7,404 nt of DNA from a bacterium (GTDB lineage: Bacteria > CSSED10-310 > JAJRTK01): positions 1 to 7,404 of the forward strand of contig JAJRTK010000476.1 in the NCBI GenBank assembly GCA_024278345.1. The letters run 5' to 3'. Shown here piece by piece: positions 1 through 7,404 of this stretch. The translations under genes and the position numbers were made by a program. Position 1 is the stretch's first letter. Each line of letters opens with the position of its first letter. Below the pieces are notes generated by a model. The model saw nothing but the letters and a program-made list of their open reading frames with translations, did no database searches and was not told the origin of the DNA.

Positions 1-152
1 GACCTATCAGATCCGGTTGACAAGTCCACGCACGAAAGGAACCCACCGTTCAATTCCGTGAATCCCGTCCAGCCCGCCACCGGCAAGATGCCGGTGCCAC
101 CAGGGCGGCACCGCGGAGTGTAAAGCAAAAACGGGGGGATTTGATAGGTCCC
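1..152 (+). mobile_element. MITE-like repeat element, copy A (left end cut by window edge)
   Basis: The stretch is a non-coding element whose second copy lies inverted at 3328-3481. Four blocks match copy B: 1-23 (23 of 23 identical), 78-101 (24 of 24, containing a hairpin), 119-132 (TGTAAAGCAAAAAC) and 139-152 (ATTTGATAGGTCCC). The right end TGATAGGTCCC is the inverted repeat of the left end GGGACCTATCA, of which two G residues must lie just outside the window. With those two bases the element is 154 bp, exactly the length of copy B. The spacers between blocks are clearly diverged but of equal length (54, 17 and about 6 bp). It carries no plausible protein gene. The right flank is CAAGAGCA; the left flank is outside the window, so a target duplication cannot be tested. 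It ends 93 bp before the TTG start of the ATPase gene. Confidence 0.75.
79..95. repeat. Perfect hairpin at the centre of repeat copy A
   Basis: ACCGGCA and TGCCGGT form a 7-bp perfect stem around the loop AGA. The same hairpin sits at the same internal position of copy B (3385-3401). Conservation while the surrounding spacers have drifted suggests that it matters for the element, for example as RNA structure or a protein binding site. That role is inferred. No T run follows, so it is not a standard intrinsic terminator. Confidence 0.7.
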
Positions 153-204
153 CAAGAGCAGGCATCCCCGATCTGCCCCTTGCTTGGTACGAGGATGTTC
201 CACT

Positions 205-249
205 ATGGTAATGAAAACTTTGTTTAGAGCCCAGAGGTTCCCGCGTTGA
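205..249 (+). CDS. Possible 14-residue leader ORF ahead of the ATPase gene
   Basis: An ATG at 205 opens a 14-codon frame, MVMKTLFRAQRFPR, that ends in TGA at 247-249. The stop overlaps the TTG start of the next gene (TTGA at 246-249), the geometry seen in translational coupling. GAGG at 191-194 lies about 10 bases upstream and could act as a weak ribosome binding site. Nothing else supports it, and short ORFs of this size arise by chance. Confidence 0.15.
   Translation: MVMKTLFRAQRFPR
233..237 (+). promoter_or_regulatory. Ribosome binding site supporting the TTG start
   Basis: AGAGG stands 8 bases before TTG at 246. It is the reason for accepting a TTG start: the encoded protein then begins directly with the receiver-fold strand (residues 7-12, VLVVDD), and no ATG or GTG nearby gives a better N terminus. 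Confidence 0.55.
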
Positions 250-1802
250 GAATAGCAGCGTCTGTTCTGGTGGTCGATGATAGCGCCCTGCATCGTAAGC
301 AGATGGCTTCCCTCCTTCAGCGTCAAGGCTACGACGCCAAGTTGGCGGCTTCCGCCTCGGAGGCTTTCAGACTTTTGTTGAGGGAGTCCGTGTTCTTGGT
401 CATAGCAAGTGCCAAAATGCCGCGCTGGCAGGCTTTTGCCATGGCAAAACAGATGAAGGAGGCTCCTCGGCTCCAGCATATACCATTTTTCCTGATCATG
501 CCCCGGACAATCAGGAATCCGAAAGTGGAAGGGTTTCTGGAAAAATATGTGGACGAGACATTTGTCCAGCCGATCCAGGTGGCTCCATTTTTGGAAAAGG
601 TCGATGGTCACGCTAGAAGGGTGCCCGATCCCGTGGCGCCCAAGCCCTCTTTGCCAGAGAATCGGGCTGGTGCTCTTCCCGGGGCTCCCAAGAATCGGGC
701 TGGTGCTCTTCCCGGGGCTCCCAAGGAAGGATCTACTCCTTTTTCCCCGCCATCCCGCACTGAAGCGCCCCTTTCCCCCTTGTCCCCTGCCAGTTCCCTG
801 GCGATGCGGCCATCCCCTCCGGTGACGGAAGCTGCCGCTTCGCCGGCCGAGGCTGGCGAGCGGGAATCGCGGACGATGATTGCCGAGCTCGAGGCAGAGG
901 CGAATCGCCAGCTCCTTGGCGTTTTGCGGGGATCCCGGGCGCCGGTAGAGCATACCGTGGATGCCGACCAAGGCGGATATCTCAATTATTTTGGGTTCCG
1001 GTTCAGGCCCTTTTCCAACACTCCAGACGACCGTTTTTACTACTCGAGCTCCGAACATTCCAAGGCATTGCTCCGGTTGAGCTACGTCGTGGAAAACATG
1101 GAGGGGCTCGCGACTTTGATAGGCAACATCGGCGCCGGGAAGACGACGCTGGCCAGAAGATTGCTCGCCTCCTTGGATCCCGACGAATTCGAAGCAGCTC
1201 TCATGGTCATTGTCCACTCCAGCGTGACTCCGGATTGGTTGCTCCACCGTGTCTCTACGGAGCTGGGAGTAATCAACGCCCCGAAGGACAAGCTCCAGCT
1301 CATCGGCGAGCTTTACCGGCGCTTGATCGAAATCCATCAGGAGGGCCGTAGGGCCGTCATCCTCATCGACGAGGCCCAAATGCTGCAAACCAGGGCTCTC
1401 ATGGAGGAGCTCCGGGGACTCTTGAATCTCGAAGTGCCGGGCAAAAAGCTGTTGACCTTTGTCCTGTTCGGTCTATCGAGCCTCGACGATGTCTTGAACC
1501 TCGACCCGCCGCTGCGGCAGAGGGTCGCCATTCGATATCGCCTTCTCTCTTTCGATCGCCCCACCGTGGCCGACTATGTGATGCACCGCATGAGAATTGC
1601 CGGCGTGGATGAGGAGCTTTTCGCGACGGAGGCGCTCGATCTCATCTATGCCAAGTCTCACGGCATCCCAAGGCTCATCAACACGCTCTGCAACAATTGC
1701 TTGCTGGAGGCCTATTTGGGGGGCGAGGAACTGGTGAGCCGAGAGCTTGTCGTCACGGTTTGTGACAGCCTTTTGCTCGAAGCCGCGGTCACGGAGCCAT
1801 AG
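246..1802 (+). CDS. Degenerate receiver domain fused to ExeA/GspA-type AAA+ ATPase
   Basis: The 518-residue protein has two domains. Residues 5-120 resemble a response-regulator receiver: the acidic pair D11-D12 is present in VLVVDDS, but the phospho-acceptor position in LVIASAKMP is Ser55, the Thr/Ser switch region reads LIMPR, and the usual Lys before Pro is Gln108. It is therefore probably not phosphorylated. Residues 125-240 form a Pro/Ala/Ser/Glu-rich linker containing two exact copies of NRAGALPGAPK. Residues 245-510 match the ExeA/GspA AAA+ family: YFGFRFRPFSNTPDDRFYY at 248-266, Walker A GNIGAGKTT at 293-301, Walker B VILIDEAQ at 371-378, LRQRV at 423-427, and GIPRLINTLCNN at 473-484. 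The family uses ATP hydrolysis in secretion or pilus assembly and peptidoglycan remodelling. No membrane segment or peptidoglycan-binding domain follows here, so this protein is probably cytoplasmic. No secretion genes are adjacent; the process served is unknown. murG follows after 64 bp on the same strand. Confidence 0.85.
   Translation: MRIAASVLVVDDSALHRKQMASLLQRQGYDAKLAASASEAFRLLLRESVFLVIASAKMPRWQAFAMAKQMKEAPRLQHIPFFLIMPRTIRNPKVEGFLEKYVDETFVQPIQVAPFLEKVDGHARRVPDPVAPKPSLPENRAGALPGAPKNRAGALPGAPKEGSTPFSPPSRTEAPLSPLSPASSLAMRPSPPVTEAAASPAEAGERESRTMIAELEAEANRQLLGVLRGSRAPVEHTVDADQGGYLNYFGFRFRPFSNTPDDRFYYSSSEHSKALLRLSYVVENMEGLATLIGNIGAGKTTLARRLLASLDPDEFEAALMVIVHSSVTPDWLLHRVSTELGVINAPKDKLQLIGELYRRLIEIHQEGRRAVILIDEAQMLQTRALMEELRGLLNLEVPGKKLLTFVLFGLSSLDDVLNLDPPLRQRVAIRYRLLSFDRPTVADYVMHRMRIAGVDEELFATEALDLIYAKSHGIPRLINTLCNNCLLEAYLGGEELVSRELVVTVCDSLLLEAAVTEP
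658..725 (+). repeat. Perfect 33-bp tandem duplication inside the ATPase-gene linker
   Basis: The unit at 660-692 is repeated without a mismatch at 693-725, and the identity extends 2 bp to the left (658-659 match 691-692). It keeps the reading frame and encodes NRAGALPGAPK twice (residues 139-149 and 150-160). Perfect DNA identity including third codon positions points to a recent duplication or a locus that still expands and contracts. Confidence 0.95.
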
Positions 1803-1866
1803 CGCGAGGGGGGAAGGGCGGCTCCCGGGCCTCTCCCTTCTGGGAGATCGGGACGGAGACAAGATC

Positions 1867-3018
1867 ATGGCGCGACCCCTGAAAGTTGTCCTGAGCTGTG
1901 GAGGTACCGGCGGCCATATCATGCCGGCGCTGGCCGTGGCGGCTCGGCTACGCCAGCTCGATCCGCCCGCCGAGGTCTCCTTTGTGGGGACGGCGGATCG
2001 GCTGGAGGCCAAACTGATCCCAGATGCCGGGTACCTTCTCAGGACCATTGATGTGAGGGGATTCGCACGGTCTCTTCGGCCAAGGAGCCTTTTGCGCAAC
2101 GGGGCTTTGCTGTTGCGGTTGGCGAGTTTGGCCCCCCTTCGTCAAGCCAGGGGGATCTTGCGGGAGCTTCGCCCCGACCTCGTTCTGGGGACGGGGGGAT
2201 ATGTCACGGGGCCGGTCTTGTTGGCTGCGGCCCTCAGGCGTCTCCCCACGATGATCCTGGAACAGAACGCCAATCCGGGACTGACGAACCGCCTACTGGC
2301 GCCCGTTGTGCGGCGGATCGGCCTGCCTCACGAGACGGCTCACCCCTTCTGGGCCAAGCGTGCCCACAAGACGGTGGTGGTTGGCAACCCCGTGCGCCAG
2401 GCAATTTTGGAGACGACAAGGGCGGAAGGAATTCGACGCCTGGGCCTCGATTCCGCACGAAGGACACTGGGTTGTTTAGGCGGTAGCCTGGGTTCGCGAA
2501 TGCTCAACGAAAGATTCCAGCAGTTGCTCCGGGCACCTGAGTTAGCGAGCTTTTCTGGGCAGCTCCAAGCGGTCCACGGCTGCGGCACGAGATTCCTGGG
2601 GGAAGTCGAGGAGGCTGGGGCAGAGGGAACCTTTCCATGCCGTCTCCTTGATTTCATCCAGGACATGGGAGCCTTTTACGCAGCGATGGATCTGCTGGTC
2701 TGCCGCGGCGGCGCCACGACTCTGGCGGAAGCGACCGCCCGGGGGATTCCCATGGTCGTCGTCCCTTGGGAAGGTGCTTCGAACGCCGAGCAGAAAGAGA
2801 ATGCGGCCCGCTTGGTGGAGCATGGAGCCGCCATTGTGCTTTCGGAATCCGAAGTCGCCAGCGGAAAGCTGAGGAAAACCGTCGCCGAGCTTTTCCATGA
2901 ACCGCGAAAACTGGCCGAAATGCGCCGCTGCTCTTCCGCGGTCGGCGCTCCTCGAGCCGCACAGGCAGTGGTTGATGAACTCCTTGGATTGGCGGAAGCC
3001 AAAGGAAATACTCAATAA
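1867..3018 (+). CDS. murG: MurG, UDP-GlcNAc:lipid I N-acetylglucosamine transferase
   Basis: MurG adds GlcNAc from UDP-GlcNAc to lipid I at the cytoplasmic face of the inner membrane, giving lipid II, the last intracellular step of peptidoglycan precursor synthesis. The 383-residue protein has the two-Rossmann (GT-B) layout: the first glycine loop GGTGGH at 12-17, GTGGY at 108-112, LEQNANPGLTNR at 131-142, GNPVR at 173-177, the C-domain loop GGSLGS at 205-210, and the UDP-GlcNAc binding stretch CRGGATTLAEAT at 279-290 followed by P300 and AEQKENA at 307-313. Length is close to the usual 350-390. The ATG at 1867 is chosen because the N-terminal motif follows at the normal distance and GGAG (1855-1858) lies 8 bases upstream; the frame is open back to 1747 but that part overlaps the previous gene. 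No other cell-division or cell-wall genes are nearby, so murG is detached from the usual dcw cluster here. Its 3' end overlaps the convergent PC4-like gene by 7 bp. Confidence 0.96.
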   Translation: MARPLKVVLSCGGTGGHIMPALAVAARLRQLDPPAEVSFVGTADRLEAKLIPDAGYLLRTIDVRGFARSLRPRSLLRNGALLLRLASLAPLRQARGILRELRPDLVLGTGGYVTGPVLLAAALRRLPTMILEQNANPGLTNRLLAPVVRRIGLPHETAHPFWAKRAHKTVVVGNPVRQAILETTRAEGIRRLGLDSARRTLGCLGGSLGSRMLNERFQQLLRAPELASFSGQLQAVHGCGTRFLGEVEEAGAEGTFPCRLLDFIQDMGAFYAAMDLLVCRGGATTLAEATARGIPMVVVPWEGASNAEQKENAARLVEHGAAIVLSESEVASGKLRKTVAELFHEPRKLAEMRRCSSAVGAPRAAQAVVDELLGLAEAKGNTQ

Positions 3019-3242
3019 GTCTCTTCGATTTTTTTGTCGAGTTTTTTCACTAACTCCATGAACTGCGGCCAATTTTCGCAGTGGAATCGGATGCCCTTGC
3101 GGGTGGGGCCGGTGAACTTTTCCGACTCGATGAACTCGCGGAGGTCGGCGTAGAGATTTCCTTTCCATTCAGAGATGGATGCCCGGATGAAGGTGCCGTC
3201 ACGAATCTCAATTCGACCGATTTCGGTTTGCTCGGCAGCCAT
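3012..3242 (-). CDS. PC4-like (transcriptional coactivator p15 family) small protein
   Basis: The 76-residue product fits the PC4 fold: a short polar N terminus, then IRASISEWKGNLYADLREF at 19-37, which matches the family pattern of a beta strand, an S-x-W/F-K-G turn and D-L/I-R-E, then GPTRKGIRF at 45-53 (the usual GxxGI-type strand) and a C-terminal helix (WPQFMELVKKLDKKIEE, 58-74). Family members bind single-stranded DNA and often dimerise; bacterial versions may act in transcription or nucleoid functions, but the role of this one is unknown. The ATG at 3242 is preferred over upstream starts (frame open to 3323) because AGGAG (complement of 3250-3254) lies 7 bases before it and the family domain begins soon after. 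The longer frame would also run through the predicted promoter. It overlaps the convergent murG by 7 bp. Confidence 0.85.
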   Translation of the reverse strand: MAAEQTEIGRIEIRDGTFIRASISEWKGNLYADLREFIESEKFTGPTRKGIRFHCENWPQFMELVKKLDKKIEETY

Positions 3243-3294
3243 GGGTGGTCTCCTTTCTTGAGTGTTGTCGATGGAATGTTGGATCTGACGTGTG

Positions 3295-3323
3295 GACATA
3301 GCGCCGGCCCGTGGGCTTGTCAA
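3295..3323 (-). promoter_or_regulatory. Predicted sigma-70-type promoter for the PC4-like gene
   Basis: Read on the minus strand, a perfect -35 box TTGACA (complement of 3318-3323) is followed after exactly 17 bp by TATGTC (complement of 3295-3300), a weak -10 box. Transcription would start near 3288, leaving a leader of about 45 bases with the AGGAG site. The -35 box overlaps the left target-site duplication of repeat copy B (3320-3327), so the element sits immediately upstream of the promoter. Confidence 0.5.
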
Positions 3324-3327
3324 GACG
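3320..3327. repeat. Left 8-bp target-site duplication of repeat copy B
   Basis: TCAAGACG directly abuts the left terminal repeat GGGACCTATC and is repeated exactly at 3482-3489 after the right terminal repeat. Identity continues for two more bases (GG) only because the element begins with G and the right flank also reads GG. Confidence 0.75.
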
Positions 3328-3481
3328 GGGACCTATCAAATTGTCGTGTTTTTGCTTTACAATTTTCTTCGCCGAAACGGTGGCACCGGCATCTTGCCGG
3401 TGTAGCGCCCTCCGGGCTGCACGGAGCCGGGAAGGAGACCCGCCCCAGCGGTGATGTTGTCAACCGGATCTGATAGGTCCC
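3328..3481 (-). mobile_element. MITE-like repeat element, copy B (complete, 154 bp)
   Basis: This is the complete copy, inverted relative to copy A at 1-152. Terminal inverted repeats are GGGACCTATCAAAT at 3328-3341 and ATCTGATAGGTCCC at 3468-3481 (14 bp, one mismatch). Internal conserved blocks shared with copy A lie at 3348-3361, 3379-3402 (with the hairpin 3385-3401) and 3457-3481. Exact 8-bp direct repeats TCAAGACG flank it, the mark of transposition. No convincing reading frame fills it, so it must be moved by an enzyme encoded elsewhere. An 8-bp duplication is seen with several insertion-sequence families (for example IS66, ISL3 and IS256), so it does not identify the partner. It occupies the region between the PC4-like gene and the TolC-family gene. 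Its end is 85 bp from the PC4 start codon, close to the 93 bp between copy A and its downstream gene. Confidence 0.82.
3385..3401. repeat. Perfect hairpin at the centre of repeat copy B
   Basis: A 7-bp stem ACCGGCA/TGCCGGT closes the loop TCT. It is the reverse complement of the hairpin at 79-95 and occupies the same position (about 81 to 97) within the 154-bp element. Confidence 0.7.
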
Positions 3482-3489
3482 TCAAGACG
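3482..3489. repeat. Right 8-bp target-site duplication of repeat copy B
   Basis: TCAAGACG directly follows the right terminal repeat and is an exact copy of 3320-3327. Confidence 0.75.
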
Positions 3490-3688: not shown

Positions 3689-5371
3689 ATGAAATGGAAG
3701 GTACTGGTTGGCGTGGCACTTTTGGTCTGGGGTCTCCTTGGACAAGCGGATGCGCAGGAGATTGACGCTCGATTTGAGGCCCCCGAAATGGGGTTGACCG
3801 CCGTGGATAGCTCGGCCCAACCCGGCCTGTCGGTGGATGAGCAAACCTCGCTTTTGGCTGGGCGGCCCAAGCTCGAGCTTTCACTCGCCGAGGCCGTCCG
3901 TTTGACCTTGCGGAAAAACCTCAACGCACAGGTAAGGGCACTGGACTGGGTTTCGGCCAAAAGCATTGTGGAGAGCGCCCATGCCGGCTACGATCCGATC
4001 TTCCAGAGTACCACCGAGGCAAATCGGTTCCAAGGTTCCACCACAAGCGCCATCAATTCCGCCGCCGGCCAGTTCATCCAGGAAAAGGTCAAGCTCGACA
4101 CGAGTCTGAGCCAGGTGCTTCCCATCGGCGGGAGTTACAACCTGAGCCTGTCCACGGAGAGAACCAAGACGAACTCGCCCTTTAGCCTTCTCCCAGAATC
4201 CTTTTCGTCCACGTTGACCCTGGCCGTCAATTACCCCCTCCTCAAGGACAGAGGCGGTAAAGCCCTCAAGACGCCCATCAAGCAGGCCGAGAACAATCGC
4301 GACATTGCCGAGCTACAATTGCGCCAAGAGCTCATCAATGCCGTGGCCCAGACGCAGAACGATTATCTTGACCTCATCTTGGCAAGGCAGATCCTGGAGC
4401 TGCGCCTCAAATCCTTGAGCCAGGCCAAGAACCTTTTGGAGATCGCTCGCGCCCAGGAACGAGTCGGCACCATCGCCCCGATTGAAGTCTTGTCGGCCGA
4501 GGCCGGAGTCTCAACGCGGGAAGAGGCCGTCGTGGTTGCGGAAGCCGCCGTTCTCGAGGCCGAGGACGCACTTCGAAGCAGTATGAACCTGCCCGATAGC
4601 CTCGCAATGTGGAAAATCGCCCTGATCCCCTCGGACTCACCCGGAATTCCAGCGCCCGAGCCGGATTTCGAGGCCGCGGTGGAGCAGGCATTTCAGATTC
4701 GCCCCGACTACTTGCAGGCGAAGCTCAACCTGGAAAACTTTCTCTTGGAACTGGGGCTTTCTCGAGACCAAATAAGACCCCAGCTCGATTTCACCGGAAG
4801 CTACTCTTATATCGGTAACTCGAGGTTGAAGCCCACCATCAAGGATGACGGCAACATTGGCCTGGCTCCCGAGGAGGGCATTTTTCTCACCCATATCGAG
4901 GATCTGCTCAGCTTGGACAACCGGGCTTGGAGCGTGTCGTTGACCTACAGTTTACCTCTTCGGAATCGGGCGGCGCGGGGGAAGCTCCAGCGCGACAAGC
5001 TGGCCTACCAGAAGGCGATGCTGCAACTGAGGAATCTCGATCTTGCCATCGTGACTCAGGTGCGCACCGCGCTCCGGACCATCGAATCCAGCAGAAAACG
5101 GCTGGCGGCGGCCTCCATTACCGTACGCCTCCAGGAGCGGCAGCTGGAGGCCGAGCAAAAGAAGTTCCAGGTGGGAACCGCCACCAGCTTTGACGTTCTC
5201 CGCTTTGAGGAAGATCTCCTTTCGGCCCAGACGGGCCAGCGGGAGGCCCTGGTCTCCTTGAACCGAGCCGTATTGGCACTCCATCAGGCTTTGGGGGCGA
5301 CGCTGGAAGTGAACCACATCACCATCGGCGGCGAGGGCTTCCAGATCGCATCCACCGGGCAATCGCCTTAG
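3689..5371 (+). CDS. TolC-family outer-membrane efflux protein
   Basis: The 560-residue protein begins with a Sec signal peptide: K2 and K4, a hydrophobic core at 5-18, and an ADA site at 20-22 predicting cleavage before Q23. Two homologous outer-membrane efflux repeats follow, about 62-300 and 325-540, each with long Ala/Leu/Glu-rich helices. The duplicated signature is visible as VGTIAPIEVLSAEAGV at 259-274 and VGTATSFDVLRFEEDLLSAQ at 495-514. Strand-like stretches at 135-185 and 365-425 would supply the membrane barrel. Such proteins trimerise into an outer-membrane channel with a periplasmic tunnel and work with an inner-membrane pump and an adaptor. Neither partner gene is in the window, so drug, metal or protein export cannot be told apart. 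The ATG at 3689 is chosen because it starts the signal peptide and has GGAG 8 bases upstream; the frame is open back to 3641. At 560 residues it is longer than the usual 420-500, partly from the 40-residue polar stretch after the signal peptide and an insertion near 376-410. Confidence 0.92.
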   Translation: MKWKVLVGVALLVWGLLGQADAQEIDARFEAPEMGLTAVDSSAQPGLSVDEQTSLLAGRPKLELSLAEAVRLTLRKNLNAQVRALDWVSAKSIVESAHAGYDPIFQSTTEANRFQGSTTSAINSAAGQFIQEKVKLDTSLSQVLPIGGSYNLSLSTERTKTNSPFSLLPESFSSTLTLAVNYPLLKDRGGKALKTPIKQAENNRDIAELQLRQELINAVAQTQNDYLDLILARQILELRLKSLSQAKNLLEIARAQERVGTIAPIEVLSAEAGVSTREEAVVVAEAAVLEAEDALRSSMNLPDSLAMWKIALIPSDSPGIPAPEPDFEAAVEQAFQIRPDYLQAKLNLENFLLELGLSRDQIRPQLDFTGSYSYIGNSRLKPTIKDDGNIGLAPEEGIFLTHIEDLLSLDNRAWSVSLTYSLPLRNRAARGKLQRDKLAYQKAMLQLRNLDLAIVTQVRTALRTIESSRKRLAAASITVRLQERQLEAEQKKFQVGTATSFDVLRFEEDLLSAQTGQREALVSLNRAVLALHQALGATLEVNHITIGGEGFQIASTGQSP

Positions 5372-5431: not shown

Positions 5432-5692
5432 CTAGCCCAATTCGCCACCCTCGAGGAAATCTGTCTTGTCTCCCCGCTGACTACCTGTGCCTTCGCCGCC
5501 TCTCGATCCCGCGATCCGGTATTTCTCAGAGGCCCACTCCCCCAGATCGATGAGCTTGCACCGCTCCGAGCAGAAGGGGCGGTACGGGTTGCGGGAGCCA
5601 AAAATGGCCGCCTTCCGGCAAGTGGGGCAGGGAACAGTCTGGGGAACACTTTCAATACCGCGTGACCGTAGGTTGGATGGATGACTCTTCAT
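5432..5692 (-). CDS. yacG: YacG-like zinc-binding protein (DNA gyrase inhibitor family)
   Basis: The 86-residue product contains the YacG zinc site: CPTC at 22-25, 15 residues, then CSERC at 41-45, giving C-x2-C-x15-C-x3-C. It is followed by the family stretch [15 protein letters not shown] at 46-60. In E. coli YacG binds GyrB and inhibits gyrase; carrying that role over to this protein is by family only. The protein is longer than typical YacG (about 65 residues) owing to a 20-residue polar N terminus and a Gly/Glu-rich tail after residue 60. The ATG at 5692 is the first standard start in the frame and has GGGAG on the minus strand about 9 bases upstream. The frame stays open without a standard start for another 41 codons, to a TAA at 5816-5818. 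coaE, a common neighbour in Proteobacteria, is not seen. It converges on the TolC-family gene with a 60-bp gap. Confidence 0.85.
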
Positions 5693-6340: not shown

Positions 6341-7144
6341 TTAGGTTCCTTCTCCTGAGAAGAAAGGCGGCGTGTTGACGGTTTTGACCTTGAACCGCCC
6401 TTTTGAACGGCAAAGGGAGAGGATTTCCGCGATGATGCTCACGGCAATTTCCTCCGGGGTCTCGGCACCGATGGACAGGCCGACTGGAGTGTGAATGTCG
6501 TCCAGCTCAGCCTTGGAAAAGCCCTGTTCACCAAGGCTTGAGCGGATCTCCAGAGCTTTGCGCTTCGAGCCAAGAAGGCCCAGATAGGCCCGGGGCTTCC
6601 TGAGCATGGCGCCCACGGCGAACTCATCGTATTTGTGGCCCCGCGTGCAGATCACGATGTAACTGTAACCGTGGGTGGGAAGGCTGGGTAGAAGCTCCTC
6701 GAAAGGGCCGGAATGGACGGAGCGGGCCATGGGGAAGCGGGAGGGGCTGGCGAAGCTCTGCCGGTCGTCCGCTACCACCACGGAGAGAGCGACGAAATCC
6801 GCCAGCTTGGCGACCGCTTTGCCCACGTGCCCCGCCCCGATGATCACGACTTCCGGGGTGGGCGCGTGGATTTCGGTGTAAATCCTTATTTCGCCGCCAG
6901 GCCGAAGTGGAACCCGGAGATCGTAGAAATGCGATTCGCACAAGGCACCGTAGAAGGCCTGTGCCACGGTAGCCGCGAGCTCGGGACAACCAAGATCCCC
7001 TCGAAAGCTCCCGTCCTGCCGTAGAAGGAGCTTCTCGCCGGGACTCGTCAAAGTTGTCTCTTTGGCCGTGATGACGGTAGCCAGTGCTGTCCATTCGCCC
7101 CTGTCTAACGTCGCCTGGATCTCGTGCAGCCAGTGGGTTTTCAT
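6341..7144 (-). CDS. xdhC: XdhC/CoxI-family protein (molybdenum hydroxylase maturation)
   Basis: The 267-residue protein has the two-part XdhC layout. Residues 8-62 match the N-terminal XdhC/CoxI domain (ALATVITAKETTLTSPGEKLL, ending in GDLGCPEL at 49-56 with the conserved Cys53). Residues 97-245 form the C-terminal Rossmann domain: EVVIIGAGHVG at 98-108, the acidic strand end VVVADDR at 122-128, ICTRGHKYDEFAV at 165-177, YLGLLGSKRKALEI at 187-200 and the family signature VGLSIGAETPEEIAVSIIAEIL at 221-242. XdhC proteins bind molybdenum cofactor, promote its sulfuration and deliver it to xanthine dehydrogenase-type enzymes. No molybdenum hydroxylase gene is in the window, so the client enzyme is unknown and the symbol reflects the family only. 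The frame is open to 7366, but ATG 7144 is chosen because AGGAGG lies 6 bases upstream, a promoter precedes it, and the family N terminus starts there. Confidence 0.9.
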   Translation of the reverse strand: MKTHWLHEIQATLDRGEWTALATVITAKETTLTSPGEKLLLRQDGSFRGDLGCPELAATVAQAFYGALCESHFYDLRVPLRPGGEIRIYTEIHAPTPEVVIIGAGHVGKAVAKLADFVALSVVVADDRQSFASPSRFPMARSVHSGPFEELLPSLPTHGYSYIVICTRGHKYDEFAVGAMLRKPRAYLGLLGSKRKALEIRSSLGEQGFSKAELDDIHTPVGLSIGAETPEEIAVSIIAEILSLCRSKGRFKVKTVNTPPFFSGEGT

Positions 7145-7150
7145 CGTCCG

Positions 7151-7156
7151 CCTCCT
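7151..7156 (-). promoter_or_regulatory. Strong ribosome binding site of the xdhC-like gene
   Basis: The complement reads AGGAGG, 6 bases before the ATG at 7144. It decides the start against the longer open frame reaching 7366. Confidence 0.85.
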
Positions 7157-7168
7157 AATGTCCACCAG

Positions 7169-7197: not shown

Positions 7198-7404
7198 GTT
7201 CTTGGGTCGAGAGTCGTCTTGGGGCCACAGGCCTGTTTGCGGGGGGGGAGGGGGGGCGGACGGACTGCCGCCGACCCGACCGGACCCCAACCAGAAGAAA
7301 CGCCAGGGTTTTCAGGAATCGGGTATCCACGCAAGGCGGGACAAAGATTGGAAATAAAAGGCACACGCGCAGCGCACAAAAATGTGGGTCCAGGGAGCTG
7401 GCTC
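7198..7404. other. Upstream region of the xdhC-like gene, no gene seen
   Basis: Together with the promoter region this is about 250 bp without a supported gene. Frames on both strands cross it, but none has recognisable protein character or a good start site. Its one notable feature is the G tract at 7241-7256. Confidence 0.4.
7241..7256 (+). repeat. Long G tract G8-A-G7 upstream of the xdhC-like promoter
   Basis: Eight G, one A and seven G follow one another on the plus strand, 44 bp upstream of the predicted -35 box. Such a run can slip during replication and has enough GGG triplets to fold into a G-quadruplex. On the xdhC sense strand it reads as C. It stands out against a window otherwise free of G runs longer than six. 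Confidence 0.9.

Follow-up and report, generated by a model that had tools for sequence, protein, structure and literature searches.

The two related segments at positions 1-152 and 3328-3481 of the window, by which we mean the whole 7,404-nucleotide stretch of bacterial DNA analysed here, belong to a true MITE family, an ordinary kind of element and a new family, which occupies well over a hundred places in the genome although it has no gene of its own. We put the probability at about 93% that the element is a non-autonomous MITE of 154 bp that is mobilised in trans and whose subfamilies derive from source copies, as in the mechanism proposed below. The host bacterium is uncultivated and its phylum sparsely sampled. 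The family shows several waves there, and the divergence between its subfamilies, its hybrids with swapped arms and its compensatory changes help to tell the likely functional parts (ends and hairpin) from replaceable filler.

Two copies of a 154-bp element in the window

Comparison with the contigs of the assembly showed that the window is one entire contig (C419), the start of which cuts the first copy. The initial annotation had described two inverted copies with shared terminal repeats and blocks, and this description was confirmed: when oriented alike, the copies aligned without gaps and matched at 104 of 152 positions, the identical runs were found at the places first given, and 14-bp terminal inverted repeats (TIRs; GGGACCTATCARAT) bounded both copies, with the first two bases of copy 1 lying beyond the contig start. 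A self-comparison of the window returned the TIR pairs 1-14/137-150 and 3328-3341/3468-3481, together with an inverted match of 23 nt at 100% (1-23/3457-3479) and a second match of 99 nt at 75%. The parts of the two copies are as follows.

1..152, + strand: subfamily B copy of the MITE, running from element position 3 to 154; B-type at 31/31 left and 14/14 right diagnostic sites
1..23, + strand: left end of copy B, TIR from element base 3, then inner block CCGGTTGACAA
78..96, + strand: central hairpin of copy B, CACCGGCA-AGA-TGCCGGTG, with an 8-bp stem
119..132, + strand: right inner block of copy B, TGTAAAGCAAAAAC, A and B being the same at 14/14 positions
139..152, + strand: right TIR of copy B, ATTTGATAGGTCCC
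3320..3327 and 3482..3489, + strand: 8-bp target-site duplication TCAAGACG in the flanks of copy A
3328..3481, - strand: complete MITE copy of subfamily A, 154 bp; sites of type A at 31/31 and 14/14
3328..3341, - strand: right TIR of copy A, reading GGGACCTATCAAAT on the + strand
3348..3361, - strand: right inner block of copy A, TGTAAAGCAAAAAC on the - strand
3384..3402, - strand: central hairpin of copy A
3457..3481, - strand: left end of copy A, TIR GGGACCTATCAGAT and CCGGTTGACAA

Both copies are intergenic, and the gene content of the window is ordinary.

246-1802: gene for a receiver-AAA protein
1867-3018: MurG-like GT28 gene
3012-3242, minus strand: PC4-like gene
3689-5371: OEP/TolC-like gene
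5432-5692, minus strand: YacG gene
6341-7168, minus strand: XdhC-like gene

In the receiver-AAA gene, an exact 33-bp tandem duplication (658-723) separates the receiver from the AAA domain.

Copies in the host genome and their insertion sites

The genome sampled was the window's own (6,061,821 bases, or 6.06 Mb, in 550 contigs; 87.9% complete, with a bin contamination estimate of 2%), and 1.27 Mb of it, including the window, was examined in stretches most of which had been picked for containing copies. A search of the genome gave 40 scored matches to the second window copy at 97-100% identity, the other A copies being 97-99% identical to it. The TIR GGGACCTATCARAT was present exactly at 261 ends (149 + 112), versus 0 for a reversed control pattern, indicating that the resemblance within the window is not due to chance. 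Copies with both ends exact numbered 57, with a span of 153-162 bp among the matches listed, and a profile search of the 1.27 Mb returned 87 matches, of which 61 were full length. The search of the terminal pair across the host genome that had been suggested at the outset thus found numerous further copies, and the proposal held in so far as it described a MITE-like family whose ends are fixed, whose central hairpin is conserved and whose length is nearly constant. It is scarcely credible that the two window copies arose by a single recent segmental duplication or were created by the assembly; the contig does start inside copy 1 and the element stands at many contig ends, but the 57 complete copies sit at separate loci, 8-bp duplications of their own flank most of those that were examined, and the window copies come from two different subfamilies. 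The element was found within many contig breaks of the assembly, with contigs starting or stopping inside copies, and as a repeat it is a likely cause of these breaks. Many of these contigs, C166, C176, C179 and C185 among them, break at a similar element offset, the TIR lying at 127-140 from the contig start. Twenty contigs chosen blind to the element (C2, C5, C10, C30, C50 and others; L155-L174; ~0.2 Mb) contained 0 copies versus about four expected from the genome-wide count; the copies may be spread unevenly, or the bin may be mixed.

Outside this genome, the two-ended pattern was found 0 times in 40 comparison genomes, including 7 others sampled from the phylum. Plasmids and viral contigs gave no match to the element, and phages gave only 28-bp matches at E 0.5. 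The left-end pattern had 6 matches in 84,980 species genomes, 0 with the full TIR, which is chance level for a pattern built on the older TTTACAA inner motif, from which TTGACAA relatives would escape, in a collection that perhaps does not include the window's own genome. A literature search with the letters of the TIR and the hairpin returned only unrelated papers, by their titles on eukaryotic or animal-gene work.

The insertion sites carry the marks of transposition. An exact 8-bp target duplication flanked 41 of the approximately 58 full copies with readable flanks, most of the others matching at 7 of 8 positions, and the target preference was weak (for example, position 2 of the duplication avoids G and position 7 avoids C). 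At one locus (L125), a B copy is nested in an A copy, each with its own 8-bp duplication, TGGGGCGG for B and GATCACCC for A. When pre-insertion sites were rebuilt by deleting the insertion and one target copy, 19 of 50 (38%) fell in an open reading frame (ORF) of at least 200 aa, versus 2477 of 3000 random sites (83%); the element mostly inserts outside long ORFs. Its ends, the 8-bp duplications, the nesting and the avoidance of ORFs together identify it as a MITE. In line with this class, the element is far from the upper length of about 500 bp (51 of the 61 full copies measure exactly 154 bp, the remaining 10 between 149 and 156 bp) and too short to encode a transposase, it probably lacks any conserved reading frame, and it combines 14-bp TIRs and a constant 8-bp target duplication with many dispersed, mostly intergenic copies.

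To our knowledge, the TIR is not that of Correia/NEMIS, ERIC, RUP or similar MITEs. Correia/NEMIS, ERIC and RUP are small mobile repeats with TIRs, mostly intergenic, foldable and thought to be mobilised in trans, and at the level of description they share these general traits with the family described here (PMC2229807, PMC10969869). The Chunjie MITE of Geobacter uraniireducens is likewise short and non-coding, with TIRs, direct repeats and tens of intergenic copies in one genome, many of them partial, but its size varies from 178 to 235 bp compared to 154 bp here, a distinction again made by description (PMC10969869). The BrickBuilt MITE of Porphyromonas gingivalis is intergenic, its two end arms differ from each other, and it has an internal unit that may occur in tandem (PMC4596501); the start of its TIR, GAGACCTTCGCA, is somewhat like the GRGACCTATCA of the family described here. 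In contrast to this family, in which the hairpin is normally single and the target duplication is 8 bp, full-length forms of BrickBuilt always have 23-nt tandem repeats, its target duplication is inconsistent in length, and its TIR resembles an IS5-family element, ISNme1 (PMC4596501).

Subfamilies, spacers and element length

Clustering of the copies gave subfamily A (n=31, including 3328-3481 of the window), subfamily B (n=22, including 1-152) and minor ones, and thus the window holds one A copy and one B copy. The four blocks described at fixed coordinates were fully identical between the A and B consensus sequences (25/25 at 1-25, 24/24 at 80-103, 14/14 at 121-134 and 14/14 at 141-154; 77/77 in all), compared to 32/77 (42%) for the spacers (23/54, 7/17 and 2/6, in order). 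The A and B spacers are probably homologous though diverged, because they agree more often than the 28% that chance alone would give (P about 0.009) and the older copies look more alike. Per-site variation within A was 0.7-2.3% in the blocks and 1.1-2.8% in the spacers, and within B it was 0.6-1.3% and 1.5-4.8%, respectively. The strong divergence of the spacers that had been reported therefore holds between A and B but not within the subfamilies, where about 1-5% per site is near the level of the blocks, and the idea that spacer sequence is free had to be given up, since conservation within A and within B is almost as high in the spacers as in the blocks. The original contrast between blocks and spacers arose because one A copy had been set against one B copy; given the low variation within both subfamilies, it belongs to a few source lineages and not to the copies. 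At element positions 19-25 of the left end, lineage E and most of F, which are older, read TTTACAA, and A, B and D read TTGACAA; because A groups with F and B with E, this T to G change seems, judging from the sequences, to have been parallel or transferred.

Lineages A, B, D and E are 154 bp each, and the older F copies are 149-158 bp, two of which (151 and 155 bp) have exact 8-bp duplications. The same single base of the left spacer (element position ~66) is missing from three A copies, which occupy separate loci and are each flanked by an exact 8-bp duplication; this deletion lies in a C-run and could have recurred. The left arm of one copy (L097) is interrupted by some 158 bp of foreign sequence, and another copy (contig C28, L042:1571-1737) contains 4.8 tandem 35-bp units centred on the hairpin. 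Constancy of spacer length, which had been described as complete, is true of the A and B founders, between which 45 spacer substitutions were found and no indel, but 10 of the 61 full copies differ. The copies themselves show 10 indels to 145 substitutions, a ratio that predicts approximately 6 indels between the A and B spacers, where 0 were seen. This is a rough estimate from small numbers, and because of the shortfall some pressure for keeping the length is plausible. Such a modest pressure on total length would probably come from pairing of the ends in the transposition complex or from folding of the element.

A stronger interpretation is that a protein complex or a folded RNA or DNA needs the blocks at set distances, with the element acting as a regulatory RNA or terminator module of the host. 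The common length of 154 bp and ungapped spacers in A, B, D and E, although A and B are only 42% identical there, and the missing indels of the rough estimate above agree with this interpretation, as do the folding of the element, which was better than that of shuffled sequences (z -2.6 to -3.9, or -1.6 to -2.9 for the interior alone), and the covariation in the central hairpin. However, intact target duplications are also found on copies of other lengths, the shared one-base spacer deletion is present at three sites with exact duplications, and hybrids lacking A- or B-specific arm pairing moved nonetheless. In addition, Rfam gave no match, and a promoter-like site was not found in the window, leaving the idea of an outward promoter unsupported there. 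We consider this interpretation unlikely, and favor the trans-mobilised MITE with a few source copies.

Central hairpin, proposed mobilisation and a second family

REP/BIME palindromic repeats have a GC-rich hairpin and are intergenic. The hairpin of the family described here is similar, but it is always found within TIRs and 8-bp target duplications: all 77 occurrences of the core CACCGGCA-AGA-TGCCGGTG in the 1.27 Mb were inside the element, and none was free-standing as in REP/RAYT systems. A wider hairpin pattern, GGCACNGGCATCTTGCCNGTG, occurred 219 times in the window's own genome versus 1 time in 144 other genomes. It is conceivable that the hairpin was an independent REP-like repeat captured by the element and that the hairpin, and not the TIRs, drives the spread; the roughly 4.8 tandem 35-bp units in one copy indicate that the hairpin can amplify alone inside an element. 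With no core outside the element in the 1.27 Mb and a single match among the 144 other genomes, we regard such a capture as very improbable.

Among 13 lineage representatives, base pair 83:95 of the hairpin was C-G six times, A-U six times and G-C once, so that all of them had it intact, and the outer stem (67-71/106-110) showed paired changes between A-type and B-type arms. The covariation score was 0.170 versus 0.106 +/- 0.012 in shuffles (0/500), with few lineages and few independent compensatory events behind it; the counts of changed pairs and of pair types in the 13 representatives were not above shuffles. Three full copies (L119:4727, L122:2746 and L127:4541) were hybrids. Their left arms matched B at 30-31 of 31 diagnostic sites and their right arms matched A at 13-14 of 14, with a switch point within the shared hairpin block (80-103). 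All three had exact 8-bp duplications, indicating that the hybrid itself moved. In the older copies L092 and L136, a B-like left arm is joined to a mixed right arm. Conservation of the hairpin and the ends could reflect selection, or gene conversion and recombination. A tentative possibility, to which we give a minor share of belief, is that the hairpin is a required third cis-element, which either the transposase or some host factor would recognise by its structure, and that sources swap arms there while the 154-bp spacing is kept; if true, this would be a cis-requirement for movement that is not usually assumed for MITEs. Specialist attention is best directed at the central hairpin, which is unusually well conserved and covaries, and at the arm-swapping hybrids.

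In the mechanism that we propose, a DDE transposase made elsewhere would bind the TIR and the inner motif TTKACAA (19-25 at the left end, further in at the right), the element would be joined to a staggered 8-bp cut, and the duplication would then result from repair. A few source copies would have diverged to give subfamilies A, B, D, E and F; the central hairpin may have been kept by selection or homogenised by recombination, and it may have served as the switch point producing mobile A/B hybrids. A search of the window's own genome for six transposase families, namely ISKra4, PF01609, IS256, ISL3, IS1595 and IS6, found no transposase gene with the element's ends, and a scan of TIR pairs up to 4 kb apart in the 1.27 Mb gave only nested, inserted or chance cases. 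The full-length element with the same ends and a transposase, for which a check had been advised, was absent from the ends listed, in a genome that is 88% complete and fragmented at repeats. Since the assembly breaks at repeats and is incomplete to that degree, the mobiliser may be missing from it, or may be extinct.

The genome contains ISKra4 remnants, one remnant found with PF01609, which from its residues we take to be ISAs1-like, an ISL3 gene broken by another repeat, and IS1595-like fragments. A derivation of the MITE from ISKra4, ISL3, IS1595 or ISAs1 was not supported, as these remnants had other ends or no visible ones and none terminated in GGGACCTATC, an absence that falls short of proof because most of them are cut or broken. 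The end of the ISL3 copy seems to be ...GGCGAAGAGCC, and the IS1595-like one seems to begin with GGCTCTATATGCG. Searches of the same genome for IS256 (PF00872) and IS6 (PF13610) transposases gave no match, and a derivation from either was likewise not supported. Another MITE-like family, ~200 bp long and with ends that are inverted copies of GGCCTCGGTCATGGTACCGGCCAC, was also noted (L156:335-535, on contig C5). One of its copies lies in the ISL3 transposase gene with a 9-bp duplication, GTTCAAGCG. This second family gave 85 matches in the 1.27 Mb, 10 of them full length, and the right edge of the window (7364-7404) carries a piece of it.
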